Shown piece after piece: positions 3,793-10,588 of a stretch of 52,983 bases of DNA. Where the stretch lies: assembly GCA_029246105.1 (NCBI GenBank), contig JAQWOA010000029.1:1-52983 (forward strand). Reading direction: 5' to 3'. Numbering within the stretch: position 1 is the stretch's first letter; each line of letters opens with the position of its first letter. The position numbers were made by a program, and so were the translations under genes. The notes under the pieces were generated by a model that was not told where the DNA came from, made no database searches, and saw only the letters and a program-made list of their open reading frames with translations. The DNA comes from Woeseiaceae bacterium. Lineage in GTDB: Bacteria > Pseudomonadota > Gammaproteobacteria > Steroidobacterales > Woeseiaceae.

Positions 3793-4410
3793 TTATTCAG
3801 ATATACGCAGTTGGCGCTGCTTCCAATAATATGCAAGACGAACTGTTATTAATGCGAAAAGGATCACTGCATAAACTAGTGGTTCGGTGATATCTTTTTT
3901 AACTTGCCACCAGTAATGCCAGACACTGAGGATGGCAATCACGTAAATCATATTGTGAAGTGATTGCCAGTGTTTATTCATGTATTGGCGAATTGCCATA
4001 AAGGATGTAATTGCTAGCGCAGTTAATAGAACCACAGCAGTGAATCCTAGAGTGATGAAGGGCCTTTCTATAAGGTCTTCGAGAATTTCGTTAAAACGTA
4101 ATTCTTTATCTAGTACTAACCAAACAAAAAAGTGCATGAATGCATAAAAGAAAGCAAAAAGACCGAGCATGCGCCTGAAGTACGATAACCAATTCCAACT
4201 GGTTAATTGCCGGAGCGGCGTGACCGTGAGTGCAATCATAATAAATCGTAAGGCCCAGTTGCCAAAGTGATCGAGTATAGCTTCGATTTGATTGGCACCT
4301 AGGTTACCTGTTATACCAAAAGCATCGCTGATTATTAATAGCAAAGGTAGCAGGCATATGAAAAATATTATTGGCTTCCATATTAGCCGAATTTGTTGCA
4401 GCGTATTCAT
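3793..4410 (-). CDS. msrQ: MsrQ, heme-binding membrane subunit of methionine sulfoxide reductase MsrPQ
   Basis: This is the YedZ-type inner-membrane b-type cytochrome that takes electrons from the quinone pool or flavin reductase and passes them to periplasmic MsrP. The protein is 205 aa with about six hydrophobic segments. His residues fit heme ligation in the central helices (AFMHFFVWLV, SLHNMIYVIAILSVWHYWWQVK). The family start MNTLQQIRLIWKPIIF is intact. The start codon lies 5 nt after the msrP stop, giving the standard msrP-msrQ operon on the minus strand. Length is normal for the family. Confidence 0.94.
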   Translation of the reverse strand: MNTLQQIRLIWKPIIFFICLLPLLLIISDAFGITGNLGANQIEAILDHFGNWALRFIMIALTVTPLRQLTSWNWLSYFRRMLGLFAFFYAFMHFFVWLVLDKELRFNEILEDLIERPFITLGFTAVVLLTALAITSFMAIRQYMNKHWQSLHNMIYVIAILSVWHYWWQVKKDITEPLVYAVILFALITVRLAYYWKQRQLRISE

Positions 4411-5824: not shown

Positions 5825-6238
5825 ATGAATTTAGAACTTATTTATCCAATGGCTGTAATGGTGTTGTTAACGTTTATCGTATTGATCGTGATGTTTCGAA
5901 GTCGTGTCGCAGCTGTCAAATCAGGTAAGGTTAATGCTGGCTTCTATAAGACGTATCAGGAAGGTAGTGAGCCTCGACAGATTGCACAATTCTCACGACA
6001 TTTCGTCAATATGTTTGAATCACCAACTTTATTTTATGTAGCCTGTACGATCGGAGTTGTCACTGGAAAAAATACGACCATATTGATTGTATTGGCATGG
6101 ATTTACGTCGCATTACGTGCTCTGCACGCTTATATTCATACCGGCAAGAACAGCGTACCACCAAGAATGTACGCGTATTTTTCAAGCTGGTTGGTATTAT
6201 TAGGCATATGGGGAACGCTGGTTGTGGGTGTTGCTTGA
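5825..6238 (+). CDS. MAPEG-family-like integral membrane protein
   Basis: This 137-aa protein has four hydrophobic segments (about residues 5-24, 64-82, 84-100 and 118-136). The order of motifs is that of small bacterial MAPEG proteins, the superfamily of membrane glutathione/eicosanoid enzymes: NMFESPTLFYV after the first loop and RALHAYIHTG in the third region. Bacterial members of this branch have no assigned substrate, so I do not propose one. It starts with ATG behind a weak A/G-rich ribosome site (aaaaggatt). It stands alone, upstream of the ileS T-box leader and divergent from msrP. Confidence 0.82.
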   Translation: MNLELIYPMAVMVLLTFIVLIVMFRSRVAAVKSGKVNAGFYKTYQEGSEPRQIAQFSRHFVNMFESPTLFYVACTIGVVTGKNTTILIVLAWIYVALRALHAYIHTGKNSVPPRMYAYFSSWLVLLGIWGTLVVGVA

Positions 6239-6321
6239 TCAATTGGCGATCATATTCACGAATATAAATGAGGTGATACCGACTGATTTTGGCAAAGAAA
6301 GCTTACGAGATAACCTTGTTG

Positions 6322-6340
6322 CATCATAATCGTTATGATG
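6322..6340. repeat. Inverted repeat upstream of the ileS leader
   Basis: The arms CATCATAA (6322-6329) and TTATGATG (6333-6340) are perfect complements around a 3-nt centre. The element lies about 85 nt after the MAPEG gene and about 60 nt before the T-box stem I. There is no T-run after it, so it is a poor terminator. It could be an operator or part of the promoter region. Confidence 0.6.
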
Positions 6341-6384
6341 GATGCATATTTTCGCTTGTATTTAAGCCCATTGGGCGCTAATTT

Positions 6385-6656
6385 GCTCTTCAAGACGTTG
6401 AAGGGGACGAGTAGGTTGCCTCATCAGGCTAAAGCGACTGGAGGAAGGTGAAAGCTCTGGGCCTGTAGCTGCTGAATATCACCCCTAAGTCGCCTCCTGA
6501 AATGATATTTTGAGTAAGGTTGGCCGAGTGACTCTCGATACGAGTGACGGATTGCTAAATCGATCCAGAGGCGGCACTTATTGTCGTGAAACCGGGTGGT
6601 ACCGCGAATAATTTTCGCCCCGGGTGCTTTAATGCGCCTAGGGCGTTGTTTTATTT
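6385..6656 (+). promoter_or_regulatory. T-box leader (tRNA-Ile-sensing transcription attenuator) of ileS
   Basis: Elements appear in the expected order. Stem I motifs are AGTA (6410-6413), AGCGAC...GGTGAAAGC (6432-6455), and GAATATCACCCC with the isoleucine specifier ATC at 6478-6480. GCGACT (6434-6439) pairs with AGTCGC near 6488-6493. The invariant T-box GGGTGGTACCGCG is at 6594-6606. The antiterminator is CCGGG (6592-6596), a 7-nt TGGTACC bulge, GCG, a 9-nt loop, then CGC and CCCGG (6616-6623). The TGGT bulge can pair with the ACCA end of uncharged tRNA-Ile. The competing terminator is CGCCCCGGGTGC (6616-6627) with GCGCCTAGGGCG (6634-6645), followed by TTGTTTTATTT. The two structures share 6616-6623 and are mutually exclusive. 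Uncharged tRNA-Ile should therefore allow ileS transcription. Such leaders are rare outside Firmicutes and Actinobacteria. Confidence 0.92.
6616..6656 (+). terminator. Attenuator terminator of the ileS T-box leader
   Basis: A 12-position stem with one mismatch and a 6-nt TTTAAT loop is followed by a T-rich tract (TTGTTTTATTT). Its 5' arm overlaps the antiterminator 3' arm, so it can form only when tRNA does not stabilise the antiterminator. The ileS ribosome site (GGAGG, 6657-6661) lies directly after it. Confidence 0.85.
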
Positions 6657-6668
6657 GGAGGATAGGTT

Positions 6669-9600
6669 TTGTCTTTTAAAGAAGTTAAAGGTCGTTATGA
6701 TGGCCCGGTCCTCGAAACAGAGATACTGGAGTTTTGGCGAAAACGCGATATCTTTCAGAAGACACTGGACCAGACTGAAGGCAAAGCACAGTTCAGCTTC
6801 AATGAGGGTCCGCCAACGGCTAATGGTAAGCCTGGTATTCACCATGTATTGGCGCGCAGCTTCAAAGATATTTTTCCACGCTACAAAACGATGCAGGGTT
6901 ATCACGTTCTCCGTAAGGCGGGCTGGGACACTCATGGTCTTCCTGTCGAGCACGAAGTGGAGAAGGAGCTCGGCATCTTTAATAAGAAAGAAATCGAAGA
7001 AAAAGTTGGTATAGCCGAATTTACAAAGCGCTGCCGCGATTCTGTCATGCATTACATCGGCGACTGGGAAAAAATGACGGAGCGCATGGGATTCTGGGTC
7101 AATCTCGACGAAGCTTATTATACGCTTGACAATACCTACATTGAATCTGTCTGGAATCTTTTGCAAAAAATTTGGGATAAGGATCTGATCTATCGTGGTT
7201 ACAAGGTTGTGCCTTACGATCCACGCATTGGCGCAACACTTTCATCGCATGAGCTAGCACTTGGCTATAAGGATGTCGAAGATCCGTCGGTTATAGTGCG
7301 TTTCAAAATGCAGGGCGAGGACAATACTTATTTTCTCGTCTGGACGACAACACCCTGGACGCTACCATCAAACCTGGCCCTTGCTGTTGGTGACGACATT
7401 AATTACAGTTTTTGCGAATCGGAAGGACAGGTACTGATTGTCGCCGAAGCACTTCATGAATCTGTGTTTCGCGATATAGAGTATTCATTGATTAAGACGG
7501 TAAAGGGTGCTGAGCTCGTTGGAAAACGCTATGAGCAACTGTTCGGTTATCTCGCAGTTGATGCACCGAACGCATTTCAGGTTTTCTCTGCCGACTTTGT
7601 CAGTACCGAAAGCGGTACCGGCATCGTTCACATAGCTCCTGCCTATGGTGTTGACGATCTGGCTTTGGGTCAGGCAAATGATCTACCGGTTGTGCACGGC
7701 GTCGGGCTCGACGGGCACTTCATTGATGAAGTGGAACCGGTCAAGGGCCAGTTCTTCAAGGACGCCGACAAACCATTGATTCGTATTCTGAAAGAGCGCG
7801 ACATGATGTTCCGGTCGGAGCGCTACTTACACAGCTACCCATTTGGCTGGCGTACTGGAGACCCGATTTTGTACTACGCGAAGAACGCCTGGTACATCAG
7901 AACGTCAAAATTCCGCGACCGCATGACGGAGCTCAATCAGACGATTAACTGGGTGCCTGAGCATATAAAGGACGGCCGTTTTGGCAACTGGCTTGAAAAT
8001 AATATTGACTGGGCTTTATCACGCGAACGATTTTGGGGAACGCCACTACCCGTATGGACTAATGATTGTGGTGATTATCACTGTGTTGGCTCTATTGGCG
8101 AATTGGAAGAATTAACTGGCAGAGAACTCAGTGAGCTCGATTTGCACCGTCCTTCAGTCGATGAAATCACATTTGAGAAAGATGGCAATACCTGGCAACG
8201 AGTTCCTGAGGTTATTGATTGCTGGTTTGACTCAGGCGCGATGTCTTATGCGCAGTGGCATTATCCATTTGAGAATAAAGATAAATTCAAAAAGAACTTT
8301 CCTGTGGACTACATTTGTGAGGCAATTGATCAGACACGCGGTTGGTTTTATACGTTGCATGCGATATCAACACTCGTATCTGATAGCGTTGCATATAAAA
8401 ATTGTATTTGTCTTAATCTTATCGTTGATAAGGACAGCAAGAAGATGTCTAAGTCTATCGGTAATATCATCAATCCCTATGATGTTTTCGATACGGTGGG
8501 CGCGGATGCTCTTCGTTGGTATTTTCTTGCGCGTCTTTCGCCAGATGTACTGAAGCGTGTATCAGTGGATATCGTTGCTGATGTAGCGAGTTCGTTTATT
8601 AATACATTTTGGAATACTTATGGTTTTTTTGTTCTATATGCACGTCTTGATGATGTAGATCTAAGTAGAAAAATCAATCCTGAAGATCGTCCTGAAATCG
8701 ATCGATGGGCTTTAGCTTTGTTGCACAAAACCATAACGACTGTCACAGATTCGCTCGATAAATTTGACGCAAAGACTGCCGGAGAATCAATCGAATCTTT
8801 TGTTGATCAATTAAGTAACTGGTATGTTCGTCGTAACCGACGTCGTTTCTGGAAATCGACTGACCCTGAAGATACCCAAGCGGCTTATCTGACTTTGTAT
8901 GAATGCCTCGATGCAATACACAAGCTCATGGCGCCATTCGTACCATTCTTATCTGAAAATGTTTATCAAAACCTCGTGAGGAATGTATACCCTGACGCGC
9001 CGGAATCAGTACATATGACGGACTGGCCGGTTGCTGATGCGTCGTGGAAAAACGATGAGTTGCTTTTCGATATTGATATTGTTCAAAAGCTTGTAGGGCT
9101 CGCGAGATCCGCACGCGATCAATCCGGTGTTCGGACTCGACAGCCATTGGCAAGATTATTGATTCGTGCGCCTAGTGACTCTGCTGCAAAGGCTTTAGAT
9201 AAACATCAGGATTTAATTTTGGAAGAACTTAATGTAAATGCAATTGAGTTTATCGCGCGTGATGCAGGTCTCGTGAGTTATCGAATTAAACCCAACCTGC
9301 CGAGAATTGGTAAGCTGCATGGCAGACTCATACCGCTAATTCGTAAAGCACTTGAAAAAGCTGATGGTGGAATGATCGCAAGCGCGGTCGCAAATGGAGA
9401 GACTTTCGATATTGTAGTTGGTGATCAAACTATCACATTTGAAAGCGAAGACGTATTGATCGAAACGACTTCAGCAGAGGGTTATGCTTGTGCGGAAGAT
9501 TTGGGCTACCTGGCAGCTTTGGATACAACTCTTAACGATGAACTTATCAGCCAAGGATTTGCTAGAGAGTTAGTTCGTTCCATTCAGGATGCTCGCAAAC

Positions 9601-9800
9601 AGGCGGGACTTGAAGTGTCAGATCGAATTACTTTGGGCATATCTGGTTCGGCAATAGTTGAGGCTACTTTGGCAGCACATCGTGATTACATCATGAGTGA
9701 GACGTTGGCTACAAAATGGGAAGTAGGTCAATCAAGCCCTCTATATAGTGACGTGAAGGAGCTTGGTGCGGATAGTTGGACTATAGAAATTAATCGTTAG
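6669..9800 (+). CDS. ileS: Isoleucyl-tRNA synthetase, type 2 (IleS2) with GIHH motif
   Basis: This class I aminoacyl-tRNA synthetase charges tRNA-Ile. The 1043-aa length and the opening FKEVKGRYDGPVLETEILEFW match the type 2 (eukaryote-like) IleRS rather than the ~940-aa type 1 usual in Gammaproteobacteria. The first ATP signature reads GIHH (residues 56-59, within NGKPGIHHVLAR) where most class I enzymes have HxGH. The second signature KMSKS is intact (592-596). Editing-domain segments (TTTPWTLPSN) and the WFDSGAMSYAQW region are present, followed by the anticodon-binding C-terminal part. The start is TTG at 6669, 7 nt after a strong GGAGG. The GXHH variant of IleRS2 has been described as hyper-resistant to mupirocin; that property is inferred here. 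The gene lacks the usual ribF/lspA neighbours, which suggests acquisition together with its T-box. Confidence 0.97.
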   Translation: MSFKEVKGRYDGPVLETEILEFWRKRDIFQKTLDQTEGKAQFSFNEGPPTANGKPGIHHVLARSFKDIFPRYKTMQGYHVLRKAGWDTHGLPVEHEVEKELGIFNKKEIEEKVGIAEFTKRCRDSVMHYIGDWEKMTERMGFWVNLDEAYYTLDNTYIESVWNLLQKIWDKDLIYRGYKVVPYDPRIGATLSSHELALGYKDVEDPSVIVRFKMQGEDNTYFLVWTTTPWTLPSNLALAVGDDINYSFCESEGQVLIVAEALHESVFRDIEYSLIKTVKGAELVGKRYEQLFGYLAVDAPNAFQVFSADFVSTESGTGIVHIAPAYGVDDLALGQANDLPVVHGVGLDGHFIDEVEPVKGQFFKDADKPLIRILKERDMMFRSERYLHSYPFGWRTGDPILYYAKNAWYIRTSKFRDRMTELNQTINWVPEHIKDGRFGNWLENNIDWALSRERFWGTPLPVWTNDCGDYHCVGSIGELEELTGRELSELDLHRPSVDEITFEKDGNTWQRVPEVIDCWFDSGAMSYAQWHYPFENKDKFKKNFPVDYICEAIDQTRGWFYTLHAISTLVSDSVAYKNCICLNLIVDKDSKKMSKSIGNIINPYDVFDTVGADALRWYFLARLSPDVLKRVSVDIVADVASSFINTFWNTYGFFVLYARLDDVDLSRKINPEDRPEIDRWALALLHKTITTVTDSLDKFDAKTAGESIESFVDQLSNWYVRRNRRRFWKSTDPEDTQAAYLTLYECLDAIHKLMAPFVPFLSENVYQNLVRNVYPDAPESVHMTDWPVADASWKNDELLFDIDIVQKLVGLARSARDQSGVRTRQPLARLLIRAPSDSAAKALDKHQDLILEELNVNAIEFIARDAGLVSYRIKPNLPRIGKLHGRLIPLIRKALEKADGGMIASAVANGETFDIVVGDQTITFESEDVLIETTSAEGYACAEDLGYLAALDTTLNDELISQGFARELVRSIQDARKQAGLEVSDRITLGISGSAIVEATLAAHRDYIMSETLATKWEVGQSSPLYSDVKELGADSWTIEINR

Positions 9801-10210
9801 AGGGGTGTATAGAAGATTCATAATTGGAGGTACCTGCTTGACCATAGCTCTGCCGCTGGTCACCAGTTCTGCCGCTGGTCACCAGTAAGGAAACAGTCAT
9901 GAGTCAATCGCTATTAACCATTATTTTGGACCTTCGCTTGTCTCATTATTGCACCATGAAATCTTTCTTTTGTTCCGATCGTGCCATTTCAGTCAAAAAA
10001 TTTTCTACTTGCGTGAGCTTCCTAAATTCTGTTATAAAAAACATGCGCAAGAATTTTGATACATAGTGAGTACATAAGGAACTGTGGCTCTGCAGGGGGC
10101 CAGGCTAGAGTAAGTAGTCAACACAACTCCTCAACTCCAAGAAAAAAAGCGTACAAGCTGCCAAAAGGGTATGAGCGGCAATATAAGAATGAAACGCTGG
10201 AGTGATAATA
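9801..10210. other. Intergenic region after ileS; possible short ORFs only
   Basis: Apart from the tandem duplication, the region holds two short open frames on the plus strand. One runs 9899-10066 (55 codons; ATG after AAGGA) and its product resembles nothing I know. The other ends with TGA at 10203-10205, overlapping the GTG at 10202 of the next gene. Its last 20 or so codons (KKAYKLPKGYERQYKNETLE) look protein-like, but I find no convincing start codon. No terminator for ileS is evident. Confidence 0.4.
9849..9886. repeat. Perfect 19-nt tandem duplication containing CTGGTCACCAG palindromes
   Basis: TCTGCCGCTGGTCACCAGT occurs twice head to tail (9849-9867 and 9868-9886). Each copy contains the odd-centred palindrome CTGGT-C-ACCAG. 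It sits 48 nt after the ileS stop, in a 400-nt gap. Confidence 0.9.
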
Positions 10211-10588
10211 ATGAATCACGTCGACCGCTTTCGCATCGCACTTACGATGTTGACTGGGAATGGACATATAAAACAAAGACTTATCAAGGCTTACGAAAGT
10301 AATCTCGTCGCCATAAATGAAGATGAGCTACCTATTTTACTACGTCAATCTTTTGCTGATCTTAGGCATCAGATGCACAGTGTAACTCCTCTAATCGGTG
10401 AGGGGCCTATCTGTGCTTCAGTTCGAAAAATGTCGCTTGATGAGGCTAGTAAATGTGCGGCGTCCATTGTGAGTATGTATGGTGAAATATCTGGAATTGA
10501 GGATACTGTCCCAGTGAAGGATGGAGTTAAGAAACTCATCTCTGATAAGAATCTTGCCGAGCGAATGTTTTGGGCGCAGAGTCACTGA
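10211..10588 (+). CDS. Conserved hypothetical protein, about 125 aa
   Basis: I do not recognise a named family. The product is a soluble protein without signal peptide or membrane segment. Its sequence has the look of a real, conserved protein: an N-terminal RFRIALTMLTGNGHIKQRLIKAYESNL, a central FADLRHQMHSVTPLIGEGPICASVRKMS, and an EASKCAASIVSMYGEI helix. I chose ATG at 10211, which lies 9 nt after TGGAG; an in-frame GTG at 10202 is the alternative. The gene precedes murI by about 90 nt on the same strand. No function is proposed. Confidence 0.7.
   Translation: MNHVDRFRIALTMLTGNGHIKQRLIKAYESNLVAINEDELPILLRQSFADLRHQMHSVTPLIGEGPICASVRKMSLDEASKCAASIVSMYGEISGIEDTVPVKDGVKKLISDKNLAERMFWAQSH

Follow-up and report, generated by a model that had tools for sequence, protein, structure and literature searches.

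A T-box leader with an isoleucine specifier before a type-2 ileS of apparent Chloroflexota kinship in a gammaproteobacterial genus

Anatomy of the ileS leader

The window, by which we mean the whole 52,983-nt stretch of DNA analysed here, carries on its forward strand a structured leader followed by ileS, which encodes a type-2 isoleucyl-tRNA synthetase (IleRS) of 1043 aa. The protein matches TIGR00392 with 940 bits, the cut-off being 621; the next-best match, MupA/MupB, scores about 838 bits, far under the cut-off of 1900 for these proteins. The features of the locus are as follows.

6356-6384, + strand: promoter-like element TTGTAT-17-TAATTT directly 5' of the leader (tentative)
6389-6490, + strand: T-box stem I with specifier loop (Rfam alignment; covariation)
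6478-6480, + strand: specifier codon AUC (Ile), read from the sequence
6491-6592, + strand: stem II, linker and stem III region of the T-box model (Rfam alignment)
6593-6622, + strand: antiterminator with the 7-nt T-box bulge UGGUACC (Rfam alignment; folding)
6616-6656, + strand: intrinsic terminator, with its stem at 6616-6645 and a T-rich tail; overlaps the antiterminator (folding; covariation)
6657-6661, + strand: ribosome-binding site GGAGG (sequence)
6669-9800, + strand: ileS, type-2 isoleucyl-tRNA synthetase, TTG start, 1043 aa (TIGR00392; tree)

The Rfam T-box model RF00230 matches positions 6389-6625 of the forward strand with 102.4 bits against a gathering score of 93 (cmscan, E 1.6e-21). 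The match is full length and uncut (model positions 1-219 of 219), its alignment extends through the stem II, linker and stem III region, and it is the single T-box match in the 1.35-Mb bin. The specifier loop reads GAAT-ATC-ACC, and the T-box core GGGTGGTACCGCG lies at 6594-6606. The antiterminator folds with -9.0 kcal/mol and the terminator stem with -20.6 kcal/mol; the two overlap at 6616-6622 and are thus mutually exclusive hairpins. As in T-boxes generally, this difference in stability points to the terminator as the default structure and to an antiterminator that needs help to form. The terminator stem of the window contains one C-A mismatch that is missing in most aligned relatives, and on its 3' side it is followed by TTGTTTTATTT, then GGAGG and then the TTG start codon.

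A preliminary description of this DNA had proposed, at 6385-6656, a T-box with an AUC specifier and a transcription attenuator in front of ileS. The model match, the anatomy and the relatives described below all agree with this proposal. Its coordinates fit, and the score lies above, not below, the gathering threshold of the model.

The case for a promoter is less firm. The pattern TTGN3-N16-18-TAN3T occurs in 38 of 43 related leaders, as compared with a mean of 1.8 and a maximum of 6 in shuffled sequences. A strict sigma-70 scan of window positions 6230-6700 returned no promoter, and a generic best-hexamer score gave no excess over the same 43 leaders (mean 6.65, shuffled 6.85). Because the enrichment is confined to a pattern that was picked post hoc, after the conserved letters had been viewed, we regard the promoter claim as weak.

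With respect to the tRNA partner, tRNA-Ile(GAU) was not among the 30 tRNA loci scanned in the bin of the window, with three weak matches outside those loci, and pattern searches in genus genomes (24, 37 and 25 genomes) returned other tRNAs at most. In two genomes of the same order this tRNA ends in ACCA, to which the bulge UGGU is complementary; the corresponding tRNA of the bin itself was not seen. The scanned tRNA loci of the bin likewise lack tRNA-Ala(TGC), and the genes for the two tRNAs stand side by side in the same two genomes of the order. Our suspicion is therefore that this assembly lacks the rRNA operon.

The mechanism that we propose applies established T-box knowledge to the anatomy of the leader. 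Transcription would start just 5' of stem I, and the AUC specifier would pair with the GAU anticodon of tRNA-Ile. When the tRNA is uncharged, its free ACCA end would pair with the UGGU of the bulge and stabilise the antiterminator, so that RNA polymerase would continue into ileS. Charged tRNA would be unable to pair with the bulge, the stronger terminator would form and transcription would end before the gene. Read-through upon isoleucine starvation, carried out by a proteobacterial RNA polymerase, is the predicted outcome.

Conservation, covariation and erosion of the T-box

A total of 60 genomes were searched for the T-box: that of the window, 36 others of the same genus and 23 of other families within the same order. 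A match is present in 32 of the 37 genus genomes, that of the window included, and in none of the 23 others, the RF00230 gathering score being reached in 4 of the 60. Each genus genome that has a match has exactly one, and in all 31 genus loci fetched besides the window the T-box locus also encodes the same IleRS. The three highest scores of the genus come from small bins of 1.35-1.5 Mb (G000, G004 and G011). T-box coordinates and scores are identical in G021 and L016 (Woeseiaceae bacterium PL25a_bin.57), and likewise in G006 and L024 (Woeseiaceae bacterium PL23b_bin.49), from which we take the genus of the window to include genomes named Woeseiaceae. Mean sizes reported for Woeseiaceae MAGs are 3.1 Mb for sediments and 1.7 Mb for the water column (PMC12175321), and the bin of the window, 1.35 Mb at 88% completeness, is near the water-column average.

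The five genus genomes counted as misses are of several kinds. The contig of G036 stops 14 bases short of ileS, G017 has no ileS over the cut-off, G032 holds a fused T-box remnant, and in G008 and G013 no T-box was seen before ileS. Additionally, G028 is counted as a match on stem I alone, the 3' part of its leader being replaced by a palindrome that ends in a terminator. Broken T-boxes of these forms are seen in L171, where a fusion at 4020-4200 joins the 5' part of stem I to the T-box end, and upstream of ileS in L168, where stem I leads straight into a palindromic terminator with no antiterminator between them.

Beyond the genus, a class-wide sample of gammaproteobacteria gave a T-box in 2 of 369 genomes, both of the window's genus, under strict filters with few candidates per genome, by which weak T-boxes could be missed. 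Thirteen contigs named as gammaproteobacterial or proteobacterial carry the IleRS closest to that of the window (L013-L024 and L057). The T-box is present in the genomes of ten of them; for the other three, the L022 contig begins within ileS, and L020 and L021 have the type-2 ileS with no T-box match. The T-box also occurs in another set of MAGs, the relatives of G070 (L023, titled Arenicellales), where 23 of 60 genomes have it, and the eight loci newly fetched from this set all encode the same IleRS. In L023 and L094, 734 bases separate the T-box core from ileS, and this interval holds an apparent gene that is possibly co-regulated.

For comparative analysis, 43 leaders were picked by the T-box core GGGTGGTACCG and a stem I motif, so that the invariance of these two elements is not independent evidence. 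The specifier was not used in the selection. Rows without a T-box were left out, as were five leaders that cmsearch identified as T-boxes and the motif search missed (L158, L184, L229, L230 and L233); L016 and L024 were also omitted, since identical coordinates led us to equate their genomes with those of L163 and L157. All 43 leaders have ATC as the specifier. The base before it varies (T in 29, A in 7, C in 4 and G in 3) and the base behind it is always A, which indicates that ATC rather than TAT is read as the codon.

Covariation supports both ends of the leader. Stem I was aligned in 38 of the 43 leaders (L227, L228, L231, L232 and L234 were left out), with 94.1% of cells paired and compensatory changes in 17 of 21 pairs, values that none of 500 shuffles reached; controls with the strands slid gave at most 57.5% paired cells and at most 5 such pairs. 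RNAalifold run on the same alignment recovered 19 pairs, 15 of them with compensatory change. The terminator alignment was limited to the 24 of 43 leaders with simple short terminators, a choice that favours pairing, and gave 95.8% paired cells with compensatory change in 4 of 12 pairs and 11 cells (0 of 500 shuffles). Its slid control (-2) fell to 55.2% paired cells, yet 3 pairs and 5 cells were still changed on both sides, against 4 and 11.

In 38 of the 43 leaders, a script detected a hairpin followed by a T-rich run, under the loose rule of at least six T in nine positions. Of the remaining five, L019 and L234 lack a terminator of the usual form, and L175, L176 and L177 have a stem with a poor tail. 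Long palindromes lie within the terminator hairpin and lengthen it in the leaders of L157, L161, L166, L168, L175 and L181. A core resembling GGTGACAGTGACC is common to the palindromes of L161, L168, L175 and L181, and this likeness suggests that a mobile palindromic element inserts into terminators.

These data bear on how far the leader may still act as a sensor. The T-box could be a decaying passenger that arrived with the foreign ileS and has since lost tRNA sensing, its terminator merely lowering ileS expression. Such a history would be consistent with the two genus members in which no T-box was seen and the remnants in two others, with the palindromes inserted in several terminators, and with the mismatch in the window's own terminator and the poor T-run of L176 and L177, the two closest relatives of the window. 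However, the specifier is invariant and stem I carries compensatory changes, although IleRS identity within the genus falls to about 74%, and the T-box is retained, with the top three scores of the genus, in the small bins. We consequently consider a passenger unlikely.

It is still less probable, and in our judgement very doubtful, that the leader works as a translational T-box whose sequestrator hides the ribosome-binding site. T-boxes of this type have been described for ileS in Actinobacteria, and L019 and L234, with no terminator T-run and with a G-rich stretch before the start, would fit such an output. In the window, however, the hairpin and T-rich tail end before a free GGAGG over which no sequestrator lies, and the hairpin and T-run recur in the great majority of the leaders.

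Ribosome-mediated attenuation by a leader peptide with isoleucine codons is known from the enterobacterial ilv operons. In E. coli and related bacteria, amino-acid attenuation is usually coupled to translation (PMC3766115). We reject a leader peptide as scarcely conceivable here: among frames of 6-60 aa with an ATG, GTG or TTG start that lie within 6389-6645 and terminate ahead of ileS, none contains an isoleucine codon, and a complete T-box anatomy occupies the leader. Transcription attenuation by a T-box thus remains our preferred reading of this RNA.

Descent of ileS and probable loss of the native gene

Thirteen copies from gammaproteobacterial or proteobacterial MAGs share 61-85% identity with the IleRS of the window, after which identity drops to about 50% in Anaerolineae; the closest IleRS outside the gammaproteobacteria are those of Chloroflexota. 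Within the genus, identity reaches down to the value of about 74% given above. Two trees were computed from rows hand-picked among the available loci; L032, whose extracted protein stemmed from a wrong hit, was left out. In the 64-row tree, the 18 gammaproteobacterial rows form one clade (support 100) inside a starred set of 40 rows, the rest of which are 21 Chloroflexota and one cyanobacterium. The 42-row site-heterogeneous tree agrees: its 13 gammaproteobacterial rows lie in a starred set of 29, with support of 89 for a grouping of these rows with Ktedonobacter, Chloroflexaceae, Roseiflexaceae and the cyanobacterium. An arrangement that held the 21 Chloroflexota rows together without the gammaproteobacteria was rejected (p-AU 0.011), in a test based on a quick LG+G4 tree and on a group chosen after the first tree.

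By these sequence comparisons, the ileS of the window is a type-2 gene nested within Chloroflexota and not of gammaproteobacterial descent. The preliminary description mentioned neither this descent nor the absence of ileS between ribF and lspA described below. The long IleRS of L053 (titled Oceanococcus) and L173 (genome G056, same order), both from gammaproteobacterial contigs or genomes, are placed elsewhere in the tree and were labelled as other rather than gammaproteobacterial. Separately, a T-box-like leader precedes a type-2 ileS at 3070-3331 of L050, a contig titled Leptolyngbyaceae cyanobacterium and hence outside the usual T-box phyla.

The leaders themselves tell less about the donor. 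A profile built from the gammaproteobacterial leaders scores best against ileS T-boxes of Clostridia (L039, L040, L082 and L062), and some others also rank above Chloroflexota. Proof of a Chloroflexota donor from the leaders was accordingly abandoned, and the protein tree is unsupported by them. Since the leaders resemble T-boxes of Clostridia more closely than those of Chloroflexota, joint transfer is the simplest history and not a proven one; the T-box leader was probably acquired together with the foreign ileS.

Only one ileS over the cut-off is present in 35 of the 37 genus genomes, the other two (G017 and G035) having none, and the bin of the window has no second copy over the cut-off. 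The lower-scoring rows among those listed are, by length and score, fragments of split genes or other synthetases that match more weakly. The place where a native ileS would be expected is closed. In G000 the row is murJ-ribF-lspA, the ribF and lspA frames lying 12 bases apart. Of the 16 genus genomes searched, 12 (G000-G002, G005-G012 and G015) have ribF adjoining lspA with no ileS between them. Among the remaining four, G003 and G014 have no lspA match, and G004 and G013 have a partial lspA with ribF out of view. Eight genomes of the same order were searched as well, seven of them with lspA: ileS stands directly before lspA in six (G037, G039-G042 and G044), and in G043 (locus L246) ribF adjoins lspA with no ileS between. 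Taken together, these arrangements make it most likely that the native ileS of a murJ-ribF-ileS-lspA row was replaced by the foreign type-2 gene and that its place closed as ribF-lspA. G056, from the same family as G043, has a distant IleRS of type-2 length (38% identity) and no T-box match, and this family likely represents a separate, second replacement of ileS.

Foreign descent of the gene also invites the view that the contig is a chimera, or a foreign fragment in a gammaproteobacterial bin, the more so as the bin is a draft of 58 contigs. Yet the T-box recurs across the genus as described, msrP, msrQ, MAPEG and orf10202 flank ileS in relatives too, and the bin has no other ileS over the cut-off. 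The recurrence and the common flanks lead us to reject chimerism, which retains a negligible probability, and the gammaproteobacterial setting named in the preliminary description is upheld on the same grounds. Among the flanking genes, the frame at 10202-10588, 3' of ileS, encodes 128 aa with no NCBIfam or Pfam match; a relative of it is present in 28 of 50 loci, many of which end earlier.

A probably transplanted regulator and its known counterparts

The structural parts of the RNA, their conserved and covarying state, a single ileS over the cut-off, the ribF-lspA junction and the nesting of the protein are direct observations, and they lead us to a combined reading that we hold with high confidence: a canonical class I, transcription-attenuating tRNA-Ile T-box stands before a type-2 ileS of Chloroflexota kinship that has replaced the native gene. 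The gene would have been acquired by an ancestor of Woeseiaceae-related gammaproteobacteria and of at least one further set of MAGs, most simply jointly with its leader, and the native ileS would then have been displaced.

A more extensive scenario strikes us as evenly poised between right and wrong. According to it, T-box and ileS came as one unit from a Chloroflexota-like donor and displaced the native gene; the leader would since have been the only T-box of a widespread marine group, served by a proteobacterial promoter and polymerase, and mobile palindromes that land in the terminator would now be rebuilding or breaking its output hairpin.

The mechanism as such is ordinary, and what is new is the host clade, the covarying spread of the leader and the gene replacement. 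A T-box that is conserved and covarying in a gammaproteobacterial genus and beyond offers a natural test of whether a tRNA-sensing attenuator is transferable as a unit and is able to run with another RNA polymerase. In addition, the spread of the regulator is tied to the replacement of an essential gene, and as close relatives carry it intact, as a remnant or not at all, its loss can be traced.

In the open-licence literature searched, no gammaproteobacterial T-box was named in titles or the openings of abstracts, and the word proteobacteria is absent from the main text of the TBDB paper; automatic annotation of such T-boxes may exist in TBDB or Rfam. T-boxes have been called restricted to Gram-positive bacteria (PMC7270179), while an earlier survey lists them in 2 of 125 proteobacterial genomes, both with leuA (PMC2494555).

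Compared with the class I T-box of Firmicutes (RF00230), the leader of the window has the same stem I, specifier, bulge and antiterminator/terminator switch, and likewise targets an aminoacyl-tRNA synthetase; it differs in its host, a gammaproteobacterial clade, and in being the one T-box match of each genome. The ileS T-boxes of Chloroflexota (e.g., L029, L066 and L027) precede the same gene family. Of the 21 Chloroflexota rows examined, 12 have the motif, and in 9 of these the core lies 64-92 nt from the start codon, as compared with 75 nt in the window. The Chloroflexota genomes searched contain up to 8 T-boxes, with 21 in Ktedonobacter and none in one genome, as against one per genome in the window's genus, and the gammaproteobacterial leader sequences are not specifically closest to theirs.

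The ileS T-boxes with translational output in Actinobacteria have the same target gene as the leader of the window, in which, by contrast, a terminator is the output and the ribosome-binding site that follows is free. T-boxes upstream of ileS are also recorded for some Actinobacteria in the survey cited above (PMC2494555). The leuA T-box of Geobacter sulfurreducens and Pelobacter carbinolicus occurs in organisms then counted as Proteobacteria (PMC2494555); it differs from the leader described here in gene and in amino acid, and its hosts are deltaproteobacteria.

A functional parallel within the class is the SAM-I riboswitch of Xanthomonas campestris, which is reported to bind uncharged initiator tRNA (PMC7270179), and because of it a claim that the class has no known tRNA-sensing leader must be qualified. 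Both are gammaproteobacterial leader RNAs linked to uncharged tRNA, as reported for the riboswitch and predicted for the leader of the window. According to its authors, the riboswitch is no T-box: it has neither specifier loop nor T-box loop, does not need the anticodon and acts on translation (PMC7270179).
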